From Heterotrichella gracilis (Eukaryota > Sar > Xanthophyceae > Tribonematales > Xanthonemataceae), in assembly GCA_032358255.1 (NCBI GenBank), contig JAULBX010028759.1:1-26861 (forward strand): DNA of 26,861 nt, given 5' to 3'. Below are positions 756 through 26,861 of this stretch, in pieces. The position numbers and the translations under genes were made by a program. Every line of letters starts with the position of its first letter. The stretch's first letter is position 1. A model generated the notes under the pieces. The model was not told the DNA's origin. It saw only the letters and a program-made list of their open reading frames with translations, and made no database searches.

Positions 756-3700
756 GTGTTCAATATGATGCAGTCAGTAACCCAGTCTCGGCCGTTTGGT
801 GGCCCAAGGCTGCTGACGGGCCCTCGCAACCCATGTCACCCACCCCACCCCACCCACCATCACAGGCAGCCTCTCCTCAGGCGCTCGCCGCCCCAATCAG
901 CCCCGCCAACCACAGCACGCGCAGCAGCAGACGCCCTGGAGCCCAGCGTCACCCTCCCCGTGAACTTCTACCGCATCCTTCGGGTCAACCAGGTGGCATC
1001 CAGCACCACCTGCCTCAGAAAGCTGGATGAGCTGCTGGCCAACCCTCCAGAAGGGTTCAGCGAGGACGCCCTGCTCGCCAGGGCAGGGGTCCTCCAGAAG
1101 GCCGTCAACATCCTCGTAACGCCAGCTGATCGCCGCTACTACAACGAGCAGGTCAACTCTGGGGACGAGTTCCTGGACATCACCAAGGATGAGGCACTGG
1201 GTGCACTGCTGCTGCTGCACGAAACGGGGGAGTTCTCCACAGTGGTAAAGTACGGTGGCGAGCTGCTGGCAGACACCCACAAGAAGGACCCGTTTGCAAA
1301 GGACCTGGCGCTTGCTATTGCTCTGTCCTACTGCGATGCTGCTGGGGACCTGCTGGAAGGGGGGGGTGATGTGGGCACTGCTTGCCAGCAGCTGGGCAGT
1401 GGAGTGGCCCTGCTGAAGGAATACAGCGTGGATAAGGCCCTCGAGAGTGACATCAACCAGAGCTTGGAGGTGGGTGTAGCAAAGGCCTGAGAGGGCAGGC
1501 TAGAAATGGGCAGTTGATTGTTGGTCAATGGGAGCATGGTGTGTCAAACCAACGAGTATCGCGCACAGACCCACATTGTGTTTGCAACCAATACCACCTA
1601 GGAGAGTGATCCCTTCGGGCCACTCATAGATCAGGGATTAGGCTTCAGGTATAGGGTGTGCAAAGCTGAACCAAGACCAAAAGCAGCAGCACCCCAAGCT
1701 CATGCACCTTCCTGTACTGCAATCACTGCCCATACAGAAGCCCACCCATGGTTTTGAGCACTGGCTACCTCCCATGTCTCCCTCTCATGTTCAGCCTCAC
1801 CTCGCATCCCGCCACCCATATCCTGCTCTGCCTGGTGAATTTGCCGCCTGGGCTTGTGTCCTTCTTAAACACGTCATCTAGTAATATTGTTGCTGTCGAA
1901 GTCAGGGAAGACTTGCACGTATCACTGCATAACGCGAGACATTAAGGTCCTCCCATCAACGCTACATATCCATACAAAATTATATATATATAATTAAATC
2001 CCTAACAACGCCCCCCCTCCTCCACTCCCAGGAGTTGCGCCCCCAGCTTGCCCTCCGCCAGCTGCGTGCTCCCCTGGACGCCACCGCCACCAGGGCCCAG
2101 GGCATGGCCGCACTCAAGCGCCTGCTGGGGGACCAGGGGAGGGACCAGGGGGAGAGGGCAGACCTGCTGGCAAAAGCACAGCAGGTGCTGACCAGCGCAG
2201 AGCAGGTAGGTGCACAGAATATTTGTCCTTTGAGGTGCAAAGAATACTTGTACCCATAGAAAACCAGATGCTCGTATTTAACCATTAGGGACCCTGTCAA
2301 TGCTCATTCTGCACCGCTATGCTCTACAGCAAGTCCCAGCGGGGGTTGTGCTCCAAAGGAATTTCTTGCAACAAAGTATAAGACTTCACATTCTTATACT
2401 TCCGTAGCGCCCTCCTCTCCTCCTCCTCCTGCCCCCTTCCCCCCAGGTGGCCCTGCACCGCGCCCTCCCCTCCTCCCCGCTCTACTCCTCCCCCGATGCC
2501 CTCTACGCCCTGGCCACAGCCCAGCTCGTGGAGTCCTTCAACAACAAAAACCCTTGGGGGGTGCAGGCGGCGCTCGCCAAATTCCGCCAGGTGGCCGACC
2601 TCCCCGCCTCCCTCGCATCTGATTCCTCCCAAGGCGAGGAAAAGGAGGGTGATGGGGATGCCCGCGGGGAGGACGCCGAGGAGCTGTTTTTGGACACCAG
2701 CCTGGAGCAAGGGGTGTGCAGCCTGCTGCTGGGGAGGCCCGATGAGGCGGAGGAGGTGCTAGGGTTGGGGCCAAACCCTAGGGTGAAGGCGGAGCGCGAG
2801 GTGGAGCGCTTTGTCAAGGTGGGTAGCGCTGGGTGGAGGACAGGGGAGGAATTGCTACTCGCACTCTACATCCTTTTGACTGGTGCTGGGTGTTTGTCAA
2901 ACGCCTCGCTTAGCTTTTAAACAACCAAGATGTGATATTGGCGGCTCCAATATCTGATAGGATGTAGTGTAGCATGGGCTTTGAGCTACGGGACCAATCG
3001 TTGGTGCAGAGATGGTGTACGGTACTCATTGCCAGGGCTCAATCCCCACCCACATCCCCTCCTGCAGGACAACTCCTCCAGCCAGGATGACCTGCTGCCT
3101 GGTCTGTACACGTTGGCTGGCCAGTGGCTGCAGCTGGTGGGATTCTCAAGCTTCAGGGATACCGCCAGCGGCCGTGCATCCCTGGACGAATGGTTTGCAT
3201 CCCGGAGGGTGCGCACGGCACTTCAGGTGGGGATGCAAGCTAGCCACATGCGTTTCCATCCACCACTTCTGAAGTCTTAGTAGATGGCTGCGGCAAACTT
3301 TTGGACGATGAGCTATGCTGCTTGGGACATTGGCACATTATCACTTTAGGTGTTGCACCAACACTTTGCAAACCATGTCGGCAACAGGTTTTGTTGGAGA
3401 TATGCATCTGCTGGAATGCACGCAACTGATGCCCCATTTGAAGGTGTATGATGCCAGGCGAGACCTAGGGCATAATCCCTGAAATGCATGGCATTGACCC
3501 TATTTTCTGACCCTGTGTGCAGCTGTATGATGCCAGCCGAACCGGGGGTTGCCCCTGCTCACCAACAGCATGCAAACAAATTTTGGGGCACACTGTGAAA
3601 TTGCATATTGTCCTATTATAAAAGCGATCATAGCTTTAATCACCGCCAAGGGCTGTATTCTAGGGGCATTCCATGCTGGAGTGCACTCAATTGAAAGCCC

Positions 3701-8961: not shown

Positions 8962-10205
8962 AGTCCAGCCCCTCAAACAGCCCCTCGCCCTTGATGGCCG
9001 AGGTCTTGAAGATGGCCCAGTCGCGGTTCTTGATGGAGGGCAGGCCAAGGCCCTCAGCCACTGCAGCGTCGTCAAGCGCACCGGGCAAGTCCTGCGGGTG
9101 GGTGCACATATGCGTGGGTGCGGTGGTTGAAGTGTGCCCAAGGGATGGTGGTGTGTGCAGGTAGGTGGGTTTGGGTGGGTGCGGTGGTGGTGTGTGTGGT
9201 GGCGGGTGTGTGGGCAAGTGGATGGTAGCTCTCCAGCGCTCCAGGCAGGTCCTGTCTGTTTACTGCTACATGCATTAGCACTAAGAACCACTGCATATGT
9301 CTCATTGACAGACAATAACACGGTGCTGGCGCTCGGCACTTGACATCAAAGGAAGGAGGACAGGAGGACGTCCGGCAACCACTGGTGAATTCAGCCCCAC
9401 CAAGGCAACTGCCTGCTGTGCGCACCTGCTTGTTTGCAAAGATAAGCAGCAGTGCATCCTTCAGCTCGTCCTCCTCCAGGATGGCGTGGAACTCCTCCTT
9501 GGAGGTTGCTAGCCGGTCTGTGTCACTGCTGTCCACCACGTAGATGATGGCCTGGGTGTTAGGGTAGTAGCACCGCCAATAGGGCCGGATGCTGGTCTGA
9601 CCACCCAGGTCCCATACCTGGAACTTTATGTTCTTGTATGTCACCGTTTCCACGTTGAAGCCGATGGCTGTGGGGCAGGTGGACGGGGGAGCATGAGTGG
9701 GGTGTGGTGCACTGAGGTGTGGGTTACTAATATTCGGGACAGATCATACAGGGCAGGAGTGGCGTTTTGAAGGGGCTTGGAAAGCAGGACATATGGGATG
9801 TATGGGATGTTGTGGGTGTTGCGAGGGTGTGCCACCTGGGTTGCTACCAATGGGACAGCTTGAGAAGGATCATGCACTGGGCAAAAGGACAGAGCTTGGG
9901 GCTGCACAATGGACCACTTTGTCAGTATAACGAAGCAGATACTTACTTGGGATAGTTGAAACAACCTCGCCGACGTGCAACCGATCTGCAACAGGGGAGG
10001 TCTGCCGTGAGCAAAGCTGTCAAATAAAGGAGTTGGCAACAAGGACAGCAAGGACAGATCACATCACAGCTCGTCAACAATGCATGCAGAAGAGCAGGCA
10101 CGTACACAAGATGGTCGTTTTCCCTGCGTTGTCCAGACCAAGAACCAGAATGCGAGCCTCCTTTTCTCCAAACAAGTTGAGCAGTTTTGACACCCACAGC
10201 CCCAT
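8927..10205 (-). CDS. ARL1: ADP-ribosylation factor-like GTPase ARL1, 4 exons
   Basis: ARL1 is a small GTPase of the trans-Golgi network that recruits GRIP-domain golgins when GTP-bound (family knowledge). Exons on the minus strand: 10205-10106, 9985-9947, 9667-9426, 9091-8927. They join in phase to 181 aa, against about 182 in plant ARL1. Visible motifs are Gly2 in MGLWVSKLL (myristoylation), P-loop GLDNAGKT (23-30), switch [13 protein letters not shown] with Thr47, switch [22 protein letters not shown] (65 on), NKQD split by intron 3, and [20 protein letters not shown] near the C-terminus. [32 protein letters not shown] and the [14 protein letters not shown] tail fit ARL1 better than ARF1, which has LGLDAAGKT and WDVGGQDKIRPLW. 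Donors are GTACGT, GTAAGT and GTGCGC. Upstream and on the same strand I see no partner gene. Confidence 0.96.
9225..9254 (-). pseudogene. Relic of ARL1 exon 4 start in intron 3
   Basis: Reading the minus strand from 9254, CAG is followed by DLPGALESY, matching the live exon 4 start (DLPGALDDA at 9091). It lies 160 bp upstream in gene direction. Over the first seven codons there are five base differences, four of them silent (TTG/CTG, CCC/CCT, GGT/GGA, CTT/CTG). It retains an acceptor-like CAG. Confidence 0.75.
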
Positions 10206-12081: not shown

Positions 12082-13265
12082 ATGCTTTGCAGGCTCTGGG
12101 CAAACTCTGCTGCCCAAGTCAGTGCGAGGAATGCACTGGCCAGCAGGCCAGCAAGCCCATCACTGGTTACGCTGCATACAAAGCCCTGTTCTTATCGTCG
12201 CAAAAGGTGCCAAGTTGCCATCAGGGCTGCACCTCTTCCTGCTAGCCCAGCAGGTGCACCTACTCCTGGCCAGAATACCTGGAAGGAAAACGTTATCCCA
12301 GCGGTACGACAACCTTGCTGCTGCTCTAGGACACAGACCATGGCCCTGGACTGGCAGTACCAAAACTAAAACTTGGTCATAGCTCCCCTTTGAACCAGCT
12401 GCGCCTGGTACACGCAGGTCAAGCAGTGGCCAGTAGTCAGGTGGTTCTATGACTGGCCAGTTGTCAGGTGGTACAAGGCTAACGAGTTCTGAATCCACTA
12501 CCTTGTGTCGCTATTGGCCATGTTTGGCATTGGTGGCTTGTTGGGCATATCTTTGCTCAGATGTGACATACCAACTGTGATAACGTGGATCCTCGACATT
12601 TTGAAAAAGTTGTTTGGCTTGTAGAGAGCAGGTGAGTAGGACACAGCCCGCGCCCCACGGCCTGGGACTGCCAGTTACAAAACTAAAACTTGGTCACCTC
12701 TCCCCTATGACCCAGCTGTCGTCTGATACACGCAGGTACAGAAGTGGCTGGTGGTCAGGTGGTTCTATGACTGGCCACTGGTCAGGTGGTACAAGGACAA
12801 CAAGCTCGAGATCCACTTCCTTTTGTATTTCTGGGTCATGTCTGTCATCGGTGGCCTGGTGCTGATATCTTTTCTCAGATGTGATATACCAGCTGTGATA
12901 ATGTGGATATTTAACTTTTTGAAAAGCAAATTTGGGCTGTAGAGTGCAGGTGAGGAGGACACAGCCCACGGCCCACGGCCCGGGACTTAGCAGATACAAA
13001 ACTAAACCTAGGTCACCTCTCCCCTACATCCCGGGAGCGCTATGACCCAGCTGCCGTCTGATACATGCAGGTCCAACAGTGGCCGGTGGTCAGGTGGTTC
13101 AACGACTGGCCACTGGTCAGGTGGTACAAGACCAACAAGCTTAAAATCCACTTCCTTTTGTATTTCTGGGCCATAGCTGGCATCGTTGGTCTGGTGGCCA
13201 TATCCTCGGTCAGATATTTCATACCACTTGCGATAGATGGGATCTTCGGCGTTTTCGGGCTGTAG
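12082..13265 (+). CDS. Tentative small membrane protein with triplicated last exon
   Basis: Family not recognised. The proposed first exon is 12082-12303 (MLCRLWANSAAQVSARNALA to ENVIPA, 74 aa). It is rich in Ala, Ser and Arg with few acidic residues, like an organelle-targeting peptide. A phase-0 donor (GCG|GTACGA) could join it to any of three tandem last coding exons at 12418, 12736 or 13071, each after ACRYGCAG and each phase 0. The second (12736-12942) encodes a Trp/Arg-rich stretch (VVRWFYDWPLVRWYK) followed by a hydrophobic segment (FLLYFWVMSVIGGLVLISF) and a short tail ending FGL. The third (13071-13265) encodes a 64-residue relative. The first has an in-frame TGA at 12490. All three are followed within about 12 bp of their stop by a CAG|GTGAG donor, so a 3' UTR exon is likely. 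Choice of exon and start is inference. Confidence 0.38.
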
Positions 13266-13276
13266 AGAGCAGGTGA
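12338..13276 (+). repeat. Three tandem copies, about 310-320 bp each
   Basis: The units start near 12338, 12656 and 12973. Each begins with a GGCCTGGGACT-like motif, then ACAAAACTAAA and GGTCA, then an acceptor, the exon, a stop codon and a CAGGTGAG donor. Unit 1 carries a premature TGA at 12490, yet its frame stays open to the shared terminal TAG at 12622, 68 codons from the exon start. Unit 3 has lost four codons relative to unit 2 and has an inserted CCCGGGAGCGC-containing stretch before its acceptor. Confidence 0.88.
12418..12624 (+). pseudogene. First copy of triplicated exon, with stop
   Basis: This copy reads VKQWPVVRWFYDWPVVRWYK, then ANEF and TGA at 12490-12492, where unit 2 has a glutamate codon (GAG). 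After the stop the frame continues without indels to TAG 12622. If spliced in, it would give a protein without the hydrophobic segment. It is either a decayed copy or a source of a soluble isoform. Confidence 0.55.
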
Positions 13277-14273
13277 GTGTGCACACAGCCTGCTGGTGGT
13301 TGTTGCTGCGATTGGTCACGATGTATTTTCCCCTGCAAAAAATATGTTTACTTTTGGTGCAGGGAGCATCGGGTGTGCTGCAGCGTGAAGTGCGCCGCAG
13401 ACCATGCACCCATAGATAACAGTGGAGCTGAAATCTGCAGCTCAAAAAATCCTTTGGAATGTATTGGCCAGCTGCCTGCTGGTGCGTGTACTTCAGAAGG
13501 GGATGCAGGCAGCCCGTTTTGGGTGGTTGGCACAAAGGCATTGCACATAATGACAGCAACCAGGCTGTCTGTAGGGAGGTTTCCTTCCGCAAATCTGCGG
13601 TCAGGGACTGTAACCGATGAAAGCTGATTAGAGTTCACCTTACATGGGAATACCACTCTGGGCAAAATGATGCATAGAGAACTTACCTTTATGGCTTGTG
13701 CACAAACCCAAGTCAAACCATCTGCCATTGATCCCCATTAATAATATTATTAATATTATTAATATTATTAATATTATTGGTATTATTTTTAACTGTCTCG
13801 CAGCAATATAATGAAATATCCCCCTGGTGGCAAATCCTGCTGTGCTGCCATGTCAGCATGCAGGCAGTCGAGTGAGCGCCCAAAACTTGTGTGGCGGTGC
13901 AAAGGATCGAGAGTTTTATGAGGAGGGGGGTGGATTCTATGTGGAATTGCGCAAGACAACGACCACAGTTGAATAAGAGAACATACTTGTTTGAACGTGT
14001 GCGGTAGTTACCTGCGCTTGCCAGTTCTAGAACGCACCGTCACTTTCTTGTGCGACACACCACCGAACCAAAGCAGCAAACACAACAACCACATACTACT
14101 GTCCCTGCAAACGTAAATATATCGGACACTATCTACCGCAGCCCTTACCGTACTGTACAAAGGGAGTTGTTCTACTTCAGAGGAAAACTGCCATCAGCTA
14201 TTCCCCACCACACCACACAAAAGCACCCACCACCAGAAGCAGCAAAGCACCACCACCACCCAGGCTGTCCACC
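13276..14273. other. Intergenic region upstream of SecA
   Basis: No gene is recognised. The part after 13363 (following TTGGTGCAG) could be a 3' UTR exon of the preceding gene. A 126-codon minus-strand frame (13348-13728) resembles nothing I know. The last few hundred bases should hold the SecA promoter and 5' UTR, and CA-rich sequence precedes the ATG at 14274. Confidence 0.45.
13737..13790. repeat. AT-rich 9-bp microsatellite
   Basis: A run of the 9-bp unit TAATATTAT with slight variation forms an AT island in GC-rich DNA. The sequence is nearly self-complementary and could unpair or form hairpins. Confidence 0.9.
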
Positions 14274-17200
14274 ATGTACAGCCTGAAAGGCAGCCACACC
14301 GCCACCAGCCTGACCAGACAACCATCCACCACCACCACCACCGCAGCAGGGCTCCCCCGCCCCCACACCCCACTCCCCACCCCCGCCTTCCATGGCGCCC
14401 CACTCCGCCACCCCACCCCCTCCGCCCGCCGCCCACCGACATGGGCCAAACCCCGCCGTGGTTTGACACCCACCACTGCACTCTTTGGGGGACTCGGCAA
14501 GCTATTCAGCAATGACCCTTCGGCCAAGGTGCGCACATATGTGGGGCTGGTGTTCGGCCAAACAGGGCTGGGTGGTTCAAAGCTGTGCAAGGGTGGCAGC
14601 TAACCTAGCTACAGGGTTGCGTAGTTGTGTTGTTGAGGGACTTGGGAGCGGCTTGCGACAGACAGAGTGGATGTGCACGGCATGTGGCTCCAGCGGGTGG
14701 GTGCGTGCATGGCACTGGCGCTTGGCAGGGGTGCGCAAGTCAAGCGTGCTGGTGGAACACACGAGTGCATGGGACTTGTGGCCACTACTGTTGGATGGGT
14801 GTCGGGGCATGGCACCTGGCAGTGGCGTGTGGAGGGCAGGGGTGCCTGTTTAGGGTTTTGGGCTTGTGTCGTTAACTGCCAGTGTCTCGGTGTAGGTGCG
14901 CCAAAAGTATTAAGCTAGGGTTTAGGTTTTATGGTTCAAGGTTTCGTGCTTGTTTCGTTGACTGCATGTGTCCCGGTGTAGGTGCGCCGAAAGTACCAGG
15001 CTAGGGTTCAGGCTTTAGGGTGTAGGGTCCGGGGTTTGTGTGGTGACGGACGCATGTCCCGGTGTAGGTGCGCCAAAAGTACCAAGCCAGGGTGGACCAG
15101 GTCAACGCCCTGGAGCCCGACATGCAAGGCCTTTTAGATGAGCAGCTTGCCGGGAAGACCCTTGAGCTGAAGGGGAGGTATGCCGCGGGGGAGTCGCTGG
15201 AGGAGCTGCTGGTGGAGGCCTTTGCGGTGCGTGGTGGTGGTGGTGGGTGGTGGTGTGGGGGGTAGCGGTGGTGGGGGGAGGTAGTGGTGGTGTGTGAGGG
15301 GGGGGGATTGAGCAGCGGTATGGCAACGACTTTATGGAGTACCACGTCTGGTTTCTCCCCCTGGCTTGTTGGGGGTTGGTACACGCTGTTACGTGCGGAA
15401 ACCACAATTACAATCCTAAACCCTAAACGTCGTGCACAGCAAACCACAAGCCCATTGCCGCAAACAACTACTTAAGCCGGAACTCGCCAGGCCTGCGAGC
15501 CTATGGCCACCCTCTTCGTTATACAGCTGGTCAGGCCTTGCGCCCGCCTTTCCAAACCCTAACCTAGGGTCTTTTCACCCTCGCAGGTGGTGCGCGAGGC
15601 CTCCAGCCGCGTGCTCGGCCTGCGCCCCTTCGATGTGCAACTCATCGGTGGCATGATCCTGCACGAGGGCCAGATTGCTGAGATGCGCACCGGGGAGGGC
15701 AAGACCCTGGTGGCGGTGCTGCCTGCCTACCTCAATGCACTGACCTCCAAGGGTGTGCATGTGGTGACTGTGAATGACTATTTGGCCAGGAGAGATTCGG
15801 AGTGGGTGGGGCAGGTGCACCGCTTCCTGGGGCTGGAGGTCGGCCTGGTGCAGCAGGGGCTGTCGGTGCGTGGGGGAATACCCTAGCGAACCCTAGCAAT
15901 ATCGTGATGGGAACGATATCGAAATCATGATGAAATGCTTGGCGGAAATCCTAGTGGTTACCCTTAGGGCAGGTGCACCGCCTCCTGGGGCTGGAGGTTG
16001 GCCTTGTGCAGCAGGGGCTGTCTGCGCGTGGGGTAAAACCCTAGCAAAGCCCTTCCCTTACACATGCAAATCCATGGACACTGTCCCACTGCATCTCTAT
16101 AGGAGCCAGAGCGCATGCGCAGCAGGCATGACCACGGCGGTGCACCGGTAGCGTTAATGGCGTCGCTCCGGATTCGGCGTGGCCTTGTGACCAGCCTTTA
16201 AACCTCCTGGCTCAACTACCTGCAAAGCCCTGAACCCTGAACCCTAAACCCTTGCTTCCGCAGGAGGAGGAGCGCAGGCGCGCGTACGCAGCCGACGTGA
16301 CCTACGTGACCAACAGCGAGCTAGGGTTTGACTACCTGAGGGATAACCTAGCGCAGCGCGCCGAGGACCTGGTGCTGCGCCCCTTCAACTTCTGTGTGAT
16401 TGATGAGGTGGACTCAATCCTGATCGATGAGGCGCGCACACCGCTGATCATATCAGGTGGGTGCTTGTGACAAAGAATTACTTTTTGTATTTTTTGTCAA
16501 AATGGGGCTAACCAGGTGTGGGGTTGGGGAGGGGGGCGTTTGGCTGGTACTGTGGGCATGTGTCCCATGGCGTTGTGCACACATGGGGGGCCATCTCTTG
16601 GGCACATGGTCGCATAACCACATGGTTGCATAAGCACCTGATCGGCTGGTCACTCTCCAATACAACCAGATGCCTCAACACCCACCCAAGCCAGCAAACA
16701 AAAAGGAAAGGTTGAAGGCAATTTCGACCGTACCCCCGCATCCCTCAGGACCCGCTGAGGGCCCCTTTAAGTGCTACTACAAGGCAGCCAAGTTGGTGCA
16801 TCTCTACCTCCACCCCACTCCACCCACAGTCACTTACAACAACGCAAACAAAACTCAAATACAACCCTCCAGGGGATTTATTTGCAACCACTACACCCCA
16901 AAAAGTAATTCCCAATCTCCCATCCCCCAGGCCCCGCTGAGCGCCCCTCAGACCGCTACTACAAGGCCGCCAAGCTGGCTGCCGCAATGGAGCGGGAGGT
17001 GCACTACACGGTTGATGAGAAGCAGCGCAGCGTGTTGGTGACTGAGGAGGGGTATGAGGCGGCGGAGAGCGTGCTGCAGGTGGGGTGGAGTCGTGCATGA
17101 GGAGGGTGGGTATGGGGCCGGGTGTTGGTGGGGTTTCGTAGGATTTTTGAGATGGTTTTGGAGCAAATGTGCAACTATATAGTGGATGAGAAGCAGCGCA

Positions 17201-20200
17201 GCATTCAGTGGCGGAGGAGGTGTACGAGGCGGCAGAGAGCGTGCTGCAGGTGGGGTGGGGTGGGGGCCGGGGTGGGTGGTGGTGGTTGGCGGGTGTTGAG
17301 GGGTATGTTGAAGGATTGTTTGGGTTGTTTGCGGAGCAAAATTCAGGTAAATAGATGATAGCCTCATGGTTAGATTTCCAAGTGGCAGTCACCCGTGAGC
17401 AGGTGACCTCCTACCTGCTCAGCGCACCTTGTCAAACCCTAGCAAACCCTAAACCAACCCTGCTCCCTGCTTCCCCAGGTGATCGACCTGTACGACCGTG
17501 AGCAGTGGGCCTCCTACCTGCTCAGCGCACCTCGTCAAACCCTAGCAAACCCTAACCCACCCTACCCATTACCCCGCAGGTGACGGACCTGTACGACCCG
17601 CGCGAGCAGTGGGCCTCCTACCTGCTCAATGCCCTCAAGGCCAAGGAGCTGTTCAAGAAGGATGTGAACTACATTGCAAAGAGCGACGAGGTGCGGCGCA
17701 GGGTTTGGGGTCAGGATTCACATTGGGGTTGTGATTACCCTTGAATGTTGGTGTGAAATCTCAGGATGGTTACTACGGAATTTTGGAGCGATCACTATGG
17801 AATGCCGGCCATGTGCTTCAAGGGTCGCAAGGGAGCAACTACCCAATTAATTAATTTGCTCTCACTCTAATGCCACGGTTGCACCCCAGGTGGTCATCGT
17901 TGATGAGTTCACCGGGTGCACCATGTCCGACAGGCACTGGGCTTTAGTCTGCACCAGGCAGGGAAGACCAACCAGGGGGTATTAGCACCCACCCTCCGCG
18001 ATCCCCTCGCCCCTGCGATCCTCGCCCCTTGACCCCCTCAGACCCCTCTAAACGTCTGAGCTCTTACCCTTCCCCCTCCCCCCAGGTGGTCATCGTTGAT
18101 GAGTTCACTGGGCGCACCATGCCCGGCAGGCGCTGGGGCGATGGGCTCCACCAGGCAGTGGAGGCAAAGGAGATGCTGCCCATTCAGAACGAGTCAATCA
18201 CCTTAGCATCAATCTCGTACCAGGTGGGTGGCGGCAGCGGTGGCGGCGGCGGCGGCGGTGGCGGTGGTGGTGGCGGTGGTGGCGATGGTGGCGGTGGTGG
18301 TGGCGGTGCCGGTGGTGGTGGCGTTGCCGGTGCCAGTGGCGTTGTTGTTGTTGTTGGTGGTGGTTTGGCAGATTGTTGGAGGAGAGGTATGGGCAGGTGA
18401 CAGCGCTACAGCAGTGAAGCTCCTTTGGTGGGAGTTGGATGGCAATGCTGCTGTGGTGCAGGGTGGCCTGAAAGATTGGCTCGGTTGATTCTAGTGCACC
18501 TTCCGGGTGGAAAGCGGCGGGTGTAGGTGCAGCATGGGGCGCCCCGTTGCAAGGAAATGGGGGGAAACTGCAATCACATTCAAGTTTTTGCATGGACTTC
18601 ATAAACCAAGCCGGGTCTCTACCATACGTGCACCCATGCGCCCATGCACCCATCTAACTGTAGCTGGCTAGACAGACACACATCCTGCACCTTGCACCCC
18701 CAATCATGAAACTTACAATGAACCATATGTTTCCTCCCCTGCAGAAATTTATTCCGCTCCTACCCCTAGCTGGCTGGCACAGATCGGCACAACCCTTACA
18801 CCCTAATACCATATCCACAAACCCTAAATTTCCTCCCCTGCAGAACTTCTTCCGCTCCTACCCCAAGCTGGCTGGCATGACCGGCACAGCCGCCACCGAG
18901 GTAGCTGAGTTCAGCAACATCTACAACCTCACGGTGGCCGTGGTGCCACCTAACAGGGTCATCAAGCGGACGGACAACCCAGACGTGGTGTTCAGGTGAG
19001 GGGCTGATTGTTGGTGCCTTGTGCAGGGTGTCTTGTAGGCTGTGTGCATGTATTTCCATAGGGGCTCGTGTTTACAGGGATCCATTTGTGGGGTTCATGG
19101 TTCATGTCAACAGCATTCCTTATTTAGGGTTTATACATGGTACGTATAGGGTTTCATGAACAGTTCTATGTAGGAATCCTTGAAGTGTGCCGCAGCTGCG
19201 CGCCACTTTGCACCCACCCACCTCAACCCTAAACCCTAGACCACCCATTCCAGGTCGGAGGTAGGCAAGTGGCGTGCGGTTGTGACTGAGATCCGGCGCA
19301 TGCACAAGGAGGGCAGGCCGGTGCTTGTGGGGACCACCAGTGTGGAGCGCAGTGAGCTGCTGGCGGATATGCTCAAGGAGGATGGCATACCCTACCAGGT
19401 GGGCGGCGGCGGTGGTGATGTGATGGCGGCAGTGGTGGAGGTGGTGGTGGTGACTCGCGATTTTGACCAGAGCGGTATGCATATATTCTTGGTCTATGCC
19501 ATGTATTATCTGTTCCTTTAATGTAATACCTGTATACTGGTTTGTTTGTTTAAGACTTATAATGAGTACCTGCCACGGCTTGAAACAAATCGTGGGCTGC
19601 AGCGGGTACTCATTGTTATTCTCATTCTATTATTTATGTATCCTTGGTTTTTGCAATCCCCAGGTGCTGAACGCCAAGCCCGAGAACGTGGAGCGTGAGT
19701 CTGAGATTGTGGCCCAGTCTGGTCGCGCGGGTGCTGTGACCATCGCCACCAACATGGCTGGCAGAGGTACAGACATCCTGCTGGGGGGCAACCCCGAGTA
19801 CATGGCAAGGCTCAAGGTCAGGGAGATGCTCATGCCACAGGTGAGAGTGGTGGTGGTGGTGAGGTAAAGGTTTCTTCAAGGGGTTGGGGTTTTGAGTGTA
19901 CCAGGTGAGGAGGCAGGGGAGGGGAGTTCAATTTTAGGGTATTGAAGGCACATGGTGCATGGGTGGCTTGTGAATGTGACACCTGTCACGGCTCTGAATG
20001 TGACATGCGTGGTGTGGTAATTTTGTGCAGTCGCGAGCCAGGTGGAGTAGGGCAATCCTAAAATACCGTTCTTTAACCCTGAACCCTAAGCTTGAAAGCC
20101 TGTCGCCATGCGTGTGTGTGTTGTGCAGGTTGTGAGCCAGGTGGAGGAGGGCAACCCACTAACCAAGGGCAAGAATGGGGCCATGAAGGTAGGGATGTAG

Positions 20201-23200
20201 GGTGTTGAGCCAGTAGGAGGATGGCAATCCACTGATTAACGGGGGAAATGGGGCCTTGAAGGTATCAGGGACCATCACTGCCGGAAAAGGCATGCAAGGG
20301 CACAGGCACACCCCGTGCACTTTATGCATTATGCAAGTATATCACGAAGCGTGCACCGCATGTACCGAGTTGTATTGTCCGCTGACCTCTTTCCATGCGA
20401 CCCATATCAGGAGGAAGTCCCTTTTTATGACAAGAATGCAGGCACAAAAGTGGTCAAAGGACAGGCTGTATTGTTACCATTACTTACATCGCCCTTTGCC
20501 CTGCCCGCAGCTCAAGACCTGGCAGGTGTCCGCCGACCTCTTCCCATGCGAGCTCACCCGAGAGACCAAGGCTCTGTGCAAGCAAGCGGTGGAGGCGGCG
20601 GTGGGTGCCTGGGGCACCCGCAAGATCACTGAGCTGGAGGCTGAGGACAGGCTGGCGGTGGCCTGCGAAAAGGCGCCCACCAGCGACCCAGTCATTGCAC
20701 AGGTGAGAGGGGTGGATCTGGCATGTGGGCTGGGTTGAAGATAGTGAGGTACCTGGGTGGTGGGGCACCCCCAAACCCCCCAACCTCAAGGTCACAGAGG
20801 CCGAGGACAGGCTGGCAGTGGCGTGTGAAAACGCACCCACCAGCAGCTCAGTGGTGTATGTAAGCGGGGTGGGATTGGACATGTTGTTGGAACGCAGCGA
20901 CAGAATACGTTAGAGAAGTTCCTCAGGGAATTTTGGGGATTGATCTCGTTTGTGATGAGGGTGAGCTTGTGGGGATGTTCCTACTCTGCCAAAAAGCTTT
21001 AAACCCCTTTCTTGGCCAGCAGCAACCACCTTGATACCTTGCAGAGCTCACACCCACAAACCCTAATACCCCTATCAAAACCCTAAACACTAGCTAAACC
21101 CTTCCTTCGTCCTGCAGCTGCGCACAGCCTTCCGGGCATGTGAATCTGAGTACAAGGCGGTGACTGAGAGCAGCAAGGCGGAGGTGGTGGCCCTGGGTGG
21201 CCTGCACGTGATTGGTACCGAGAGGCATGAGTCCAGGCGCATTGACAACCAGCTGCGGGGCCGATCGGGGAGGCAGGTAAGGGGAGAAACCCTAAGCCAG
21301 GGTTTGGGGTAAACCTTAAACCCTAATCCCGAGCTCAATGCCTACTGTGGGCGCTGTTCCTTGTTTTTGGCGCGTTGACAAGCTATCCTGCATCCAAGCT
21401 GCGCGCCTAAAAACCTACATCTTGACTACAAAACCCTAACCCTACCCCCAAAACCTCACCATAGGGCCACTTCGGCAGCACTACTTCCTGTCCATGTAGC
21501 CTGCCCTACTCCGCCCCAAAACCCCAGCCTGGAACCTAATACCCTAACTGGTGTACTGAAACCCTTCCGCAGGGTGACCCCGGCAGCACGCGCTACTTTT
21601 TGTCCCTGGAGGACAACCTGTTCCGCATTTTCGGTGGCGACCGCATCAAGGGCCTAATGTCGCTATTCCAAATTGAGGACCTGCCCATTGAGAGCCAAAT
21701 GCTGACAAATGCGCTGGATGAGGCACAGAGAAAGGTGGGGGGCTGTGGGAAGGGTTGGTGGTTGTGTTGTGGGTTGAGTTGTGTTGGTAGGGGGAGAATT
21801 GAGTAAGGGATTGTTTCGCTAGCTTTGTGTCACATACGAGTGCATTATGGACATTGCACCAACCATCTGATCTGCATGCTCATCCAATGTATATTAATGG
21901 AATATATCTGCCTTTGTGGGTTCCCTTTCATTCTTTTTACCTTTCTGATATGGTGCGGTCCCACCCCACCACACCTTGCCCACACCACAACGTCACATTG
22001 TTGTCCCTTTCTCATCCCCAGGTGGAGTCGTATTTCTTCGACATCCGTCGCCAGCTGTTTGAGTATGATCAGGTGATGAACACGCAGCGAGACACCGTGT
22101 ACAGGGAGAGGCGCAGGGCGCTCATGACCGACGACCTGGGCAACCAGGTGGGTGTCTTGAACCCTTAATCGTTACCCTAGGAGGAACCGTGTGTTACTCT
22201 CCAAGGAACCATTACCCTAGGAGGAATTATGCGTATTACTCTAGAAGGTACATAGTCCCAGGAGGAACTGTGGACCACGAGAGGCGCAGGGCGCGCATGT
22301 CCCACGAACACAGGTGAAAACCCTAGCAAACCCTAGGTCATGAACCCTATCAGGTACCCTAGGCAACAACCACCCAGCGCCCTGCACAGGATCTGTTAAT
22401 AGCCAGCTGACACAATGGACCCTGGCGAAAACCCTTGTTACCTAAAAGGCCCTGATTGAGGCCTTGCCATACCCACGCCTTGCCTGTAGTCCCTCACCCC
22501 GCCCCCGGCCCCTCCCCCGCAGATGATCGAGTATGCCGAAAAGACTGTGGACGACATTTTGGAGGCAAACGTGGACCCCTCCGCCTCCCCTGAGGATTGG
22601 AATTTGGATGCGCTGGCCACAAAGATGCGGCAATACTGCTATGTGCTCACCGACCTGACAGCAGGTAGGGCAAACTATAAGTAATACCCTAGCCGGAATC
22701 CTAGAAAACCCTAGAAAAGATGCGCCAGTACTGCTACATGCTCACCGACCTGACGGCAGGTGGGGCAAACCCTAGGCAATACCCTAGCCCGAACCCTAGA
22801 AAACCATAGACATGATGCAGCTGTATTCCTACAGGCGCACGTATCTTGCACACCTTTTAAAGAATTCGCCCACCCCTGCCAGGGGCATGCACACCTAATT
22901 AAGGTCTTATCCGCATCTGCACCAAACCCTAAACACCTTGCCAACCTACCTCGCCAACCACACATATGTTTTGCGGGCCGAGGGCGGATCCGACTACCAG
23001 CCTCTGCTCAAAACCCTCACATCAAAACCCGGAACCCTTAAATTCCACCCCTCATCCGCAGATGTGTTGCGGTCCGAGAGCGGGTCAGACTACGAGGCGC
23101 TGCGCGTGTACCTGAAACGGCGGGCGGTGGACGCCTACTGGGACAAGGCAAAGGAGATTGAGGCGCTGGAGGAGGGGCTGATGAAGGTAAGGGCGGATAC

Positions 23201-23804
23201 TAGGGTATTAGGTATAGGGGAGGGTTGTTAGGGTATTAATATTGAGGCGCTGGAGGAGGGGCTGATGATGATAGGGGAGGGTACTAGGGTATTAGGGTGT
23301 TAGGGGTGGAGGAGGGGCTGATGAAGACAGGGAAGGAGAGTGGGCCATGTGGGTTGAGGGGTTGGTGCAAGTGGGGGTTGGGGGTTGATATGAGGCTGGA
23401 GGAGGGGTGAATGCAGGACAGGTGGGGGCGGGGGAAAGGAGGATCTGCCTAGTTTACAGACCTCTAAAACCCTGCCATTATGCTGCCTGCAGGAGGCGCA
23501 GCGCTTCTTCATGCTGACCCAGATCGACAACCTGTGGAAGGAGCACCTGCAGGCCATGAAGTTCCTGCAAACAGCGGTGGGCCTGAGGGGCTACGCGCAG
23601 CGCGACCCCCTGGTGGACTTCAAGCTAGAGGGGTTCAACCTGTTTTTGGAGATGATGGCCCAGATTCGGCGCAACGTGATCTACAATGTCTACATGTTCA
23701 AGCCCAAGCAGGTGGAGGGGCAGGGGCAGGGGCAGGGGCAAGGGGGTGGGAAGAGCCAAGGAAAGAAGGTCAAGGCGGCAGCGGCGGCGGCTGGTGCAAA
23801 GTGA
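14274..23804 (+). CDS. SECA1: Plastid SecA preprotein translocase ATPase, 18 exons
   Basis: cpSecA is the stromal ATPase that pushes unfolded proteins through the thylakoid SecYE channel (family knowledge). Exons: 14274-14528, 15068-15226, 15587-15865, 16264-16456, 16931-17079, 17580-17690, 18086-18223, 18844-18995, 19254-19398, 19664-19840, 20129-20188, 20511-20702, 21118-21276, 21573-21734, 22022-22147, 22523-22664, 23062-23186, 23493-23804. Every junction keeps phase, giving 1011 aa, the usual plastid length. Residues 1-70 form a Ser/Thr/Pro/Arg-rich transit peptide. Then come [13 protein letters not shown], Walker A MRTGEGKT (171-178), [18 protein letters not shown], Walker [21 protein letters not shown] (276 on), [19 protein letters not shown], and the second helicase motif [22 protein letters not shown] across exons 13/14. 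The C-terminus is a (GQ)n linker and a Lys/Ala tail. The zinc-binding CxC motif of bacterial SecA is absent, as in plastid SecA. Fourteen of 17 introns are phase 0. Confidence 0.97.
14855..15067 (+). repeat. 86-bp tandem copies of SecA exon 2 acceptor
   Basis: Three acceptors of the form CGGTGTAG|GTGCGCC occur exactly 86 bp apart, with exon-like starts at 14896, 14982 and 15068. Only the last leads into the live exon 2. The first copy reads VRQKY then TAA. The second starts VRRKYQ and then diverges into CTAGGGTT-type intron sequence. Because 86 is not a multiple of 3, use of either upstream acceptor would break the frame. Confidence 0.9.
15227..15310 (+). repeat. GGT-rich tract at start of SecA intron 2
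   Basis: Directly after the exon 2 donor (GTGCGT) comes a (GGT)n/GGGG-rich run on the coding strand. Similar tracts begin introns 7, 9 and 10. No exon copy is convincing in the rest of intron 2. Confidence 0.8.
15967..16046 (+). pseudogene. Copy of SecA exon 3 tail in intron 3
   Basis: The copy repeats the live exon 3 end (15809-15865 plus intron start), shifted by 158 bp. It stays open as [16 protein letters not shown]. Over the 16 codons up to the splice point there are four base differences, three silent and one Phe-to-Leu. The donor has changed from GT to GC (TCT|GCGCGT), so it no longer has a canonical donor. Both copies then run into AACCCTAGC-type sequence. Confidence 0.88.
16103..16150 (+). 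pseudogene. Possible relic of SecA exon 4 start
   Basis: After CTATAG the sequence GAGCCAGAGCGCATGCGC resembles the live exon 4 start GAGGAGGAGCGCAGGCGC at 16264, 161 bp away. The match fades after about 25 bases, so this is weaker than the other copies. Confidence 0.4.
16735..16800 (+). pseudogene. Relic of SecA exon 5 start in intron 4
   Basis: An acceptor-like CCTCAG at 16743-16748 is followed by a copy of the exon 5 start, 182 bp before the live one at 16931. It reads [16 protein letters not shown] against [16 protein letters not shown]. It is open but has several amino-acid changes, including loss of the Ser-Asp pair. Confidence 0.85.
17161..17262 (+). pseudogene. Frameshifted copy of SecA exon 5 tail
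   Basis: A copy of 16990-17079 and the donor context (GTGCTGCAG|GTGGGGTGG) lies 170 bp downstream. It keeps DEKQRS but is one base shorter overall, so the frame is lost across the following [13 protein letters not shown] region. The donor GT is intact. Confidence 0.9.
17378..17579 (+). pseudogene. Two tandem relics of SecA exon 6 start
   Basis: Copy b starts at 17479 after CTTCCCCAG, 101 bp before live exon 6 (17580). It reads [17 protein letters not shown] against [18 protein letters not shown], with an in-frame loss of the Pro codon. It then passes into CCTAGCAAACCCTA-type sequence. Copy a, about 103 bp further up, keeps only the end (SYLLSA) and lacks a clear acceptor. The two copies share nearly identical flanks after SYLLSA. 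Confidence 0.9.
17890..17976 (+). pseudogene. Relic of SecA exon 7 start in intron 6
   Basis: After CACCCCAG the copy reads [18 protein letters not shown], against [18 protein letters not shown] in live exon 7 at 18086, 196 bp away. The first eleven codons after the acceptor are open. Most changes here are C-to-T or G-to-A, several at CG dinucleotides, as expected for decay by cytosine deamination. Confidence 0.88.
18224..18366 (+). repeat. GGC/GGT repeat opening SecA intron 7
   Basis: The donor GTGGGT of exon 7 runs directly into about 140 bp of (GGC/GGT)n and then (GTT)n. The tract is in frame with exon 7. If the intron were retained, a glycine-rich extension would be added before the stop at 18398-18400. 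The rest of the intron up to 18730 shows nothing gene-like. Confidence 0.92.
18730..18795 (+). pseudogene. Relic of SecA exon 8 start in intron 7
   Basis: The copy starts at 18745, 99 bp before live exon 8 (18844), after an identical TTTCCTCCCCTGCAG acceptor. Its sequence ATTCCGCTCCTACCCCTAGC parallels the live exon, but the frame is lost and the conserved GMTGT block is changed. Confidence 0.88.
19399..19460 (+). repeat. GGC/GGT tract opening SecA intron 9
   Basis: The donor GTGGGC of exon 9 leads into GGCGGCGGTGGTGATG and further GGT units. I see no exon copy in the remainder of intron 9 or in intron 8. Confidence 0.75.
20020..20060 (+). pseudogene. Relic of SecA exon 11 start in intron 10
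   Basis: After TTGTGCAG at 20030 the sequence GCGAGCCAGGTGGAGTAGGG copies live exon 11 (20129), 98 bp upstream. It reads SQVE, then an in-frame TAG, then GNP. Confidence 0.88.
20202..20261 (+). pseudogene. Relic of SecA exon 11 with donor
   Basis: A copy of nearly the whole 60-bp exon 11 lies 73 bp downstream, ending TTGAAG|GTATCA. It contains small indels and in-frame stops, including a TAG where the live exon reads through QVEEG. The donor GT is kept. Confidence 0.85.
20370..20412 (+). pseudogene. Relic of SecA exon 12 start region
   Basis: The stretch TGTCCGCTGACCTCTTTCCA, then TGCGA, copies the SADLFPCE coding region of live exon 12 (20527), 151 bp upstream. It keeps SADLFPCD in one frame and then diverges. 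Confidence 0.82.
20755..20865 (+). pseudogene. Copy of SecA exon 12 tail in intron 12
   Basis: A copy of the exon 12 end lies 160 bp downstream. It is open over [16 protein letters not shown], followed by a diverged end and a donor-like TAT|GTAAGC. Of six base differences in that 16-codon block, five are silent; the sixth is Lys-to-Asn. The upstream GAWGTRK coding region is also recognisable but decayed. Confidence 0.87.
21455..21505 (+). pseudogene. Relic of SecA exon 14 start in intron 13
   Basis: After CACCATAG at 21464 a copy of the exon 14 start lies 108 bp before the live one (21573). It has lost about four bases inside the GSTRYF coding region, and after CTGTCC reads ATG then TAG. Confidence 0.82.
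22165..22275 (+). repeat. Short tandem repeat in SecA intron 15
   Basis: Three degenerate copies of a unit of about 40 bp contain ACCCTAGGAGGAA or a variant (22173, 22213, 22253) followed by a GTGTTACTCT-like stretch. The array leads into the exon 15 tail relic. Confidence 0.75.
22269..22322 (+). pseudogene. Relic of SecA exon 15 tail with donor
   Basis: GAGAGGCGCAGGGCG at 22279 repeats the RERRRA coding region of live exon 15, about 173 bp downstream. It ends CACAG|GTGAAA, a usable-looking donor. The DDLGNQ part is shortened by seven bases. Confidence 0.82.
22715..22809 (+). pseudogene. 95-bp copy of SecA exon 16 tail and donor
   Basis: The last 14 codons of exon 16, its donor and about 50 bp of intron are repeated 95 bp downstream. 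The copy reads [14 protein letters not shown] against [14 protein letters not shown]. Of five exon differences, four are silent. The donor is GTGGGG instead of GTAGGG. The intron parts differ by about eight bases in 52, so exon and intron diverge at a similar overall rate. Confidence 0.9.
22960..23012 (+). pseudogene. Relic of SecA exon 17 start in intron 16
   Basis: The copy starts near 22966, 96 bp before live exon 17 (23062). It reads [15 protein letters not shown] against [15 protein letters not shown] if completed by the preceding base. It has no acceptor AG directly before it, so it should be unusable as an exon. Confidence 0.85.
23241..23430 (+). pseudogene. Up to three relics of SecA exon 17 tail
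   Basis: The end of exon 17 ([11 protein letters not shown], from 23157) recurs at 23241 (84 bp away, [10 protein letters not shown], donor lost), at about 23306 (VEEGLMK, donor lost) and more weakly at about 23392. The following intron sequence (TACTAGGGTATTAGG type) is repeated with the first copy. Confidence 0.85.

Positions 23805-26785: not shown

Positions 26786-26861
<76 letters not shown>
26786..26861. repeat. CA dinucleotide microsatellite, 38 units
   Basis: A perfect (CA)38 run continues to the window end, preceded by (CG)5 at 26776-26785. Alternating purine-pyrimidine DNA of this kind can adopt the Z form. It probably lies in an intron of the ankyrin gene, and it may be where the assembly breaks. 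Confidence 0.95.

Follow-up and report, generated by a model that had tools for sequence, protein, structure and literature searches.

Introns of a nuclear gene for chloroplast-type SecA (SecA1) in an alga carry copies of the edges of the exons that adjoin them. The copies are local direct duplications at offsets of 73-220 bp, lying mostly across a splice site; the same copies are found in other genes, so that they are a property of the sampled genome, of which SecA1 is an extreme case. Between some of the copies lie tracts of telomeric repeat, a feature overlooked in the initial annotation of this DNA. On the sequence evidence set out below, we favour, with some confidence, a reading of the copies as repair scars of staggered DNA breaks, sometimes with telomeric DNA included, that would have been tolerated by way of the outer splice junction.

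The window (the whole stretch of 26,861 nucleotides that was analysed) corresponds to contig C623; the assembly it belongs to has 903 contigs and totals 68.5 Mb. The SecA1 gene model has 18 exons and encodes 1011 amino acids; all 17 of its introns are GT-AG. The closest proteins, with 77% identity, are from Coccomyxa and Micractinium, and a tree of the query with 29 of at least 120 SecA proteins among the matches listed groups it with Elliptochloris bilobata, two Coccomyxa proteins and one further protein (a five-row set with support 97/98). By this placement the host of the SecA1 window is likely a trebouxiophyte green alga. Upstream (5') of SecA1 the window also holds parts of two other genes, an ARC6-type plastid division gene with exons at 756-2920 (plus strand) and an Arf GTPase gene with exons at 9072-9653 (minus strand), and, at 12402-13235, a direct repeat in three copies of ~318-335 bp with 80-83% identity; the ORF at 13008-13592 (minus strand) is without a Pfam match. 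A perfect (CA)38 run (26786-26861) reaches the contig end. Phase-0 introns are in excess both in SecA1 (14/17) and among the 85 modelled introns of 25 other loci (50/85).

When the 18 exons were compared with the 17 introns by local alignment, 15 of the 34 adjacent exon-intron pairs scored higher than 34, which is the maximum of the 272 non-adjacent pairs. These pairs place an exon-edge copy in 12 introns (1, 3, 4, 5, 6, 7, 10, 11, 12, 15, 16 and 17; Table 1), as had been claimed from inspection of the sequence (at least 12 of 17). Fifteen of the 16 offsets that had been measured by hand are recovered (73, 84, 86, 95, 96, 98, 99, 101, 151, 158, 160, 170, 173, 182 and 196 bp); the remaining one, a copy in intron 13 at offset 108, scores 23, less than the 25 that marks the 95th percentile among controls, and is not confirmed. 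In the reverse-complement comparison the adjacent 34 pairs reach at most 31; over all cells of the 18 x 17 matrix the 95th percentile is 25.75 and the highest score 60. A repeat search found near direct repeats, 14 of them inside the window and 30 at the other loci, and no far-offset direct repeats in either. Since the copy offsets sum to 2008 of 6495 bp of SecA1 intron (~31%), the original description of the introns as "built from" copies is too strong.

Table 1. Exon-edge copies and telomere-like tracts in the SecA1 gene (positions in the window; strand given as that of the SecA1 gene; approximate positions marked "near")
Feature	Position	Strand	Source	Offset (bp)	Remarks
SecA1 gene	14274..23804	+			Gene model; homologues 77% identical; Pfam SecA_DEAD matches on exons
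Intron 1, tandem array, acceptor + exon 2 start	14854..15093	+		86	2.8 copies of 86 bp; alignment, repeat search
Intron 1, telomere-like tracts between array copies	near 14915-14936 and 15002-15029	+
Intron 3, exon 3 end copy	15967..16022	+	15809-15864	158	53/56 identical; spaced
Intron 4, exon 5 start copy	16751..16799	+	16933-16982	182	Own AG
Intron 5, exon 5 end copy	17169..17249	+	16999-17079	170	Own GT
Intron 5, exon 6 start copy	17479..17533	+	17580-17636	101	Own AG
Intron 5, additional partial exon 6 start copy upstream		+			Telomere-like tract between both copies, near 17442-17457
Intron 6, exon 7 start copy	17890..17964	+	18086-18162	196	Own AG; spaced, not abutting
Intron 7, exon 8 start copy	18746..18794	+	18844-18891	98	Acceptor exact over 14 nt
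Intron 7, telomere-like tract between exon 8 start copies	near 18815-18828	+
Intron 10, exon 11 start copy	20035..20058	+	20134-20157	99
Intron 10, telomere-like tract between exon 11 start copies	near 20073-20091	+
Intron 11, exon 11 end copy	20206..20261	+	20133-20188	73	Own GT
Intron 11, exon 12 start copy	20376..20400	+	20527-20551	151
Intron 12, exon 12 end copy	20797..20852	+	20637-20692	160
Intron 15, exon 15 end copy	22279..22307	+	22106-22134	173
Intron 16, exon 16 end copy	22716..22759	+	22621-22664	95	Own GT; full head-to-tail duplication, exon end + intron start
Intron 16, exon 17 start copy	22966..23007	+	23062-23103	96
Intron 16, telomere-like tract between exon 17 start copies	near 23025-23038	+
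Intron 17, exon 17 end copy	23241..23268	+	23157-23184	84	28/28 identical
Intron 17, another short exon 17 end copy	ending at 23326	+

The copies were also said to carry splice sites of their own. Read from the alignments, this holds for four of the seven donor-side copies in SecA1, which retain GT at the homologous site, and for six of the eight acceptor-side copies, which retain AG there or at most one base away (intron 1 being read from its 86-bp array), but not for the others. Retention of GT or AG in part of the copies is what one might cite for a regulatory function that preserves them, whether as alternative exon edges or as decoys for the spliceosome. We regard such a role as very improbable: identity to the exon edge ranges from 76 to 100% over the matched part, with varied decay, and place and size of the copies vary between introns.

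Copies of the same kind occur elsewhere in the genome. A first set of loci, found by Pfam matches (chaperonin, HSP70, aminoacyl-tRNA synthetase, DEAD helicase and a second SecA), yielded 85 introns that could be solved by splice-site score and reading frame from 106 exon pairs, and a replicate of 29 kinesin loci yielded 34 from 44; the 21 and 10 exon pairs for which no splice model was acceptable were left out before counting, and the sample is a part of the Pfam-matched loci, not the whole genome. With SecA1 included, 32 of 204 adjacent edge-intron pairs of the first set match, against 5 of 20,300 non-adjacent ones, and 28 of 102 introns bear copies; without SecA1 the figures are 17/170 pairs and 16/85 introns. 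For the kinesins they are 3 of 68 adjacent pairs, 2 of 2,164 non-adjacent pairs and 3 of 34 introns. Over all modelled introns of these sampled loci, then, exon-edge copies are present in 31/136, with 35 of 272 adjacent pairs matching as opposed to 7 of 22,464 non-adjacent pairs, which is far from the chance frequency that would have told against the initial annotation. A cause specific to SecA1 is ruled out by the copies in other loci, kinesins included. A dispersed family of the introner type is likewise ruled out, by the rarity of matches among the non-adjacent edge-intron pairs just given and among unrelated intron pairs (2/2974). Locus C85 has 9 local direct repeats and locus C96 has 5, with offsets from 62 to 269 bp; the majority do not belong to the exon-edge events that were resolved.

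The 13 loci at which copies are present are 13 of the 24 with telomere-like introns; there are none among the 16 loci without such introns, some of which have short introns and lower GC3. No telomere-like 8-mers were found on contigs C101, C13, C24, C59 and others with short introns. The assembly may thus include a second eukaryote, but no clean split into two putative eukaryotes is seen in codon use, and C189, at one time excluded on this account, has a telomeric tract between repeats. The assembly is in any case mixed: contigs C331, C111, C442, C222, C1 and C68 hold long intronless genes of bacterial look. Such mixing lends some colour to the notion that the copies are artefacts of assembly, haplotypes or repeats having been misjoined. 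We think this extremely improbable: the copies differ from their sources by substitutions and indels, they sit at splice borders with short and varied offsets, they are present at 13 loci, and the controls stand at 0/272 (SecA1) and 5/20,300.

The duplications, and the position of the live junction relative to them, are seen directly in the gene models. Twenty-seven of the 32 copies of the first set approach the exon edge to 5 bp or less, and the proposal that they straddle the splice site is upheld by the intronic flank, which is also duplicated (matching above other introns) in 18/32 by local score and in 13/32 by a stricter, junction-anchored score. The term "tandem" fits some of them loosely. 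By hand count on a permissive alignment the repeat extends over at least 0.75 of the offset in 25/32, and the units abut within 10 bp in 18/32; with tracts masked and a stricter alignment, a spacer of at least 10 bp separates the units in at least 59 of 73 repeat pairs. Clearly spaced copies are found at C395 and C56 and in SecA1 introns 3 and 6. Plain head-to-tail duplication does not account for all events; the spaced copies need later deletion or templated insertion as well.

Introns that bear copies are longer, as had been asserted, by ~150 bp (median 412.5 bp with copies, 261 bp without; p=2e-8); when the offsets are subtracted, the copy-bearing introns of loci with telomere-like introns come to 226 bp and the others to 265 bp. 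These lengths bear on the origin of the introns themselves. The initial annotation named a known model (that of Rogers) in which introns are born by tandem duplication of an AGGT-containing piece of exon; the copies would then be the remains of that birth. GT does start 35 of 102 exons, but the similarity that the model predicts is at control level over the 102 introns: intron starts match downstream exon starts with a mean of 1.63, own and control alike, intron ends match upstream exon ends with a mean of 2.39 (own) against 2.44 (control), and a score of at least 8 is reached in 1/102 introns, with 0.2 expected. With this main prediction failing, and with ~226 bp of copy-bearing intron left over once copies are subtracted, intron gain by AGGT duplication is rejected and the birth-remains reading as a whole is very unlikely. 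The signature being absent, it is probably existing introns that grew.

Duplications in blocks of exon-intron-exon are not spread evenly. Of 36 repeats (11 low-complexity hits excluded), 30 touch an exon, six are confined to the intron and none is between exon and exon, the last as expected if duplications of coding sequence are purged. A uniform neutral model puts 37-45% of repeats inside introns alone, against the observed 6/36 (P 0.0003-0.007); the simulation first used introns of at least 180 bp, and with residual lengths the exon-edge excess is weaker (P 0.006-0.007). Exon edges are thus about twofold over-represented relative to the neutral model, an excess that the break-repair explanation leaves uncovered and that tells against it; shorter ancestral introns or quicker decay of intron-only copies may be its source.

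The plant telomere repeat tops the list of enriched 10-mers in the introns, with TTAGGGTTTA found 9 times (0.08 expected). Among 8-mers, telomeric words hold the ranks from the second on (AAACCCTA, 39 against 2.5 expected), the first being GGACAGGC, with 6 copies. Telomere-like decamers cover 3.8% of the introns of the main contigs; coverage is 0.56% in a Markov control and 0.15% at exon edges. The telomeric heptamer class covers 2302 bp of 214 kb, where 19 other classes made of the same letters cover at most 278 bp. (Contigs C101, C152, C13, C189 and C849 were excluded from the word, coverage and junction tests as possibly belonging to a second eukaryote.) The telomere-type repeat is interstitial and beyond chance. 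On the sense strand TTTAGGG is more frequent near donors and CCCTAAA near acceptors; a plainer reading of this bias would be that TTTAGGG contains AG and is selected against near acceptors for that reason.

The tracts and the duplications go together, in a test devised post hoc, after inspection of the data. Thirteen of 31 duplication junctions lie within 20 bp of a tract; position-matched expectations are 4.4 in all introns (P=0.00016) and 7.4 in copy-bearing introns (P=0.02), and with windows of 10 and 30 bp the counts are 9/31 and 14/31 (P=0.07 and 0.05 against copy-bearing introns). In the kinesin replicate one of three junctions is near a telomeric tract. Viewed from the tracts, 28 of 99 in the 214 kb have a direct repeat within 150 bp on either side, compared with 150 of 1900 random places, exons included; with introns only, 14 of 44 tracts are repeat-flanked. 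For position-matched spots the count is 476 of 3205 (OR 2.7), and for spots drawn at random within those introns it is 217/1058. The repeats that flank tracts are ~25-120 bp long and often contain exon edges. Inside introns the association of telomeric tracts and copies is moderate.

Where a tract sits relative to its two units matters for how it came to be there. In the 59 direct-repeat pairs with a spacer of at least 10 bp, 603 of 5226 bp of spacer are telomeric and outer flanks of equal length hold 157 and 104 bp, a comparison that favours spacers to some extent since the outer flanks are partly exonic; tracts are in the spacer only in 16 pairs and in outer flanks only in 6 (left 4, right 1, both 1). 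The clearest arrangements are individual ones. In a kinesin intron on C131 an exon end is followed by gtaagggtttagg... and then by its own copy; telomere-like bases make up 51 of the 57 in the spacer. On C56, 48-bp exon-end copies (96% identical) flank a spacer of 39 bp, of which 24 bp are telomere-like; a second pair on that contig has 41 of 55 telomere-like spacer bases, and the intron begins GTAAGGGTTTTGGG. C189 shows an acceptor with exon start, a 44-bp spacer containing 38 bp of tract, and the acceptor with exon start again (the splice borders at these stretches of C56 and C189 having been read by eye). Two introns start with GTAAGGGTTT..., the tract being in register with the donor: the modelled one on C131 and one on C56 near 2018, whose donor was read by eye. 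The arrangement on C131, C56 and C189 is the one to be expected if the ends of a staggered break were filled in and telomeric DNA was added there.

Replication slippage or template switching at telomere-like or G-rich tracts that were already in place offers another account, in which a stalled fork jumps back and the upstream stretch is duplicated. It predicts a tract at the edge of both units, and such cases exist at C55, in SecA1 introns 1, 5 and 16, and at C902 and C902b (partly by eye, with one unit under the search threshold); these tracts probably predate the duplication. The clean cases on C131, C56 and C189 do not conform, the nearest tract is more than 20 bp from the junction, or absent, in 18 of 31 duplications, and spacer-only tracts outnumber those confined to outer flanks, although some of the 16 may be both-unit cases whose partner has decayed, as at C902b by eye. 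Slippage is accordingly a possible source of the copies, but one that we rate as doubtful.

Repair of staggered breaks, which we prefer, would proceed as follows. Short direct duplications, at the offsets of 73-220 bp already given, would be frequent in the nuclear genome of the alga. For most events, a staggered break with long overhangs would be filled in and its ends joined, leaving a direct duplication; in part of the events, telomeric DNA would be added or captured at the break, giving the order exon edge, telomeric tract, exon-edge copy. When such a duplication crosses a border, the outer junction (the upstream donor or the downstream acceptor) would still be used in vivo and the old mRNA restored. 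The inner copy of the exon edge would become intron and decay, and the intron would have gained one unit in length. The placement of copies on the intron side would need no special targeting and would follow from the established logic of splicing, because the old mRNA is regained only where splicing stays with the outer junction. The tracts present in both units, the 18 junctions that have no tract nearby and the many spaced repeat pairs weigh against this account.

In a bolder version, which we put forward tentatively and think unlikely, the introns store a record of DNA that was broken and then healed by telomerase. G-rich 3' ends would be exposed where a break falls close to a splice border; the donor (GTAAGGG or GTAGGG) would provide them on the sense strand and, at acceptors, the antisense complement of the C-rich sequence would do so. 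Telomerase or telomeric DNA would join these 3' ends, with the splice donor acting as primer, the staggered ends would be filled, and the resulting cassette would be hidden by splicing. If that were so, intron length would evolve as a repair-driven ratchet.

To our knowledge, intron lengthening without mobile elements is poorly documented. Here a single gene would preserve, in 12 of its 17 introns, a legible history of growth by steps, with a simple selection logic: a duplication survives while the outer junction is used. The copies also show how potential decoy splice sites build up, and the telomeric tracts between them link intron growth to a history of repair in a way that is testable in a small algal genome.

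The comparisons that follow are with excerpts of the cited papers. Small tandem duplications have been shown to arise, after breaks are induced in human and mouse cells, from CST-guided fill-in of 3' overhangs by Pol alpha (PMC8355091), without repeat or homology and from overhangs down to 43 bp (PMC8355091). The algal copies resemble these in being local and direct, and their units likewise measure from some tens of bp to a few hundred; telomeric tracts and splice borders, which mark the algal case, go unmentioned in the excerpt of that paper (PMC8355091). Interstitial telomeric insertions in the horse have been ascribed to break repair, and at a few of them the target is directly duplicated, which was put down to staggering of the break (PMC7215372). 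They share with the alga a telomeric repeat inside chromosomes; a duplicated target is suggested in the alga by the clean cases on C131, C56 and C189, but other algal tracts lie in both units. They differ in that the algal repeat is of plant type, lies in introns and has flanking repeats that often hold exon edges (PMC7215372). For plant telo boxes, Gaspin and colleagues proposed an origin from telomerase acting at free 3' ends (PMC3022908). In Arabidopsis and rice these are short plant telomere motifs near genes, as in the alga, but they prefer 5' flanking regions and 5' UTRs and are lower in Arabidopsis introns, whereas the algal introns are rich in such motifs and have tracts between duplications (PMC3022908).

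Tandem duplication is a known source of new introns (PMC4974935; PMC2891723). In the potato RdRp gene the duplicated unit is an intron end with an exon start, much like the algal acceptor-side copies, and that gene has a second duplication, of 83 bp, within its first intron (PMC4974935). The potato duplication adds an intron and a piece of exon, whereas in the algal gene models the outer junction is kept and an existing intron lengthens without gain of a new one, and this recurs across many introns of a single gene (PMC4974935). In Drosophila, novel intron positions arose by tandem duplication of a piece of exon with splice sites (PMC2891723), which is the likeness; the difference is that introns were gained there within coding exons, while in the alga existing introns would have grown (PMC2891723). 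The excerpts of the literature listed on border tandem duplication and intron growth contain no serial border-straddling duplications that lengthen introns throughout a gene, and those listed on telomeric repeats in introns or in chlorophytes contain no telomeric tracts between such duplications in algae. The kind of event is known, then; what sets the algal case apart is how densely such events occur in one gene, the part they would play in intron growth and their telomeric link.
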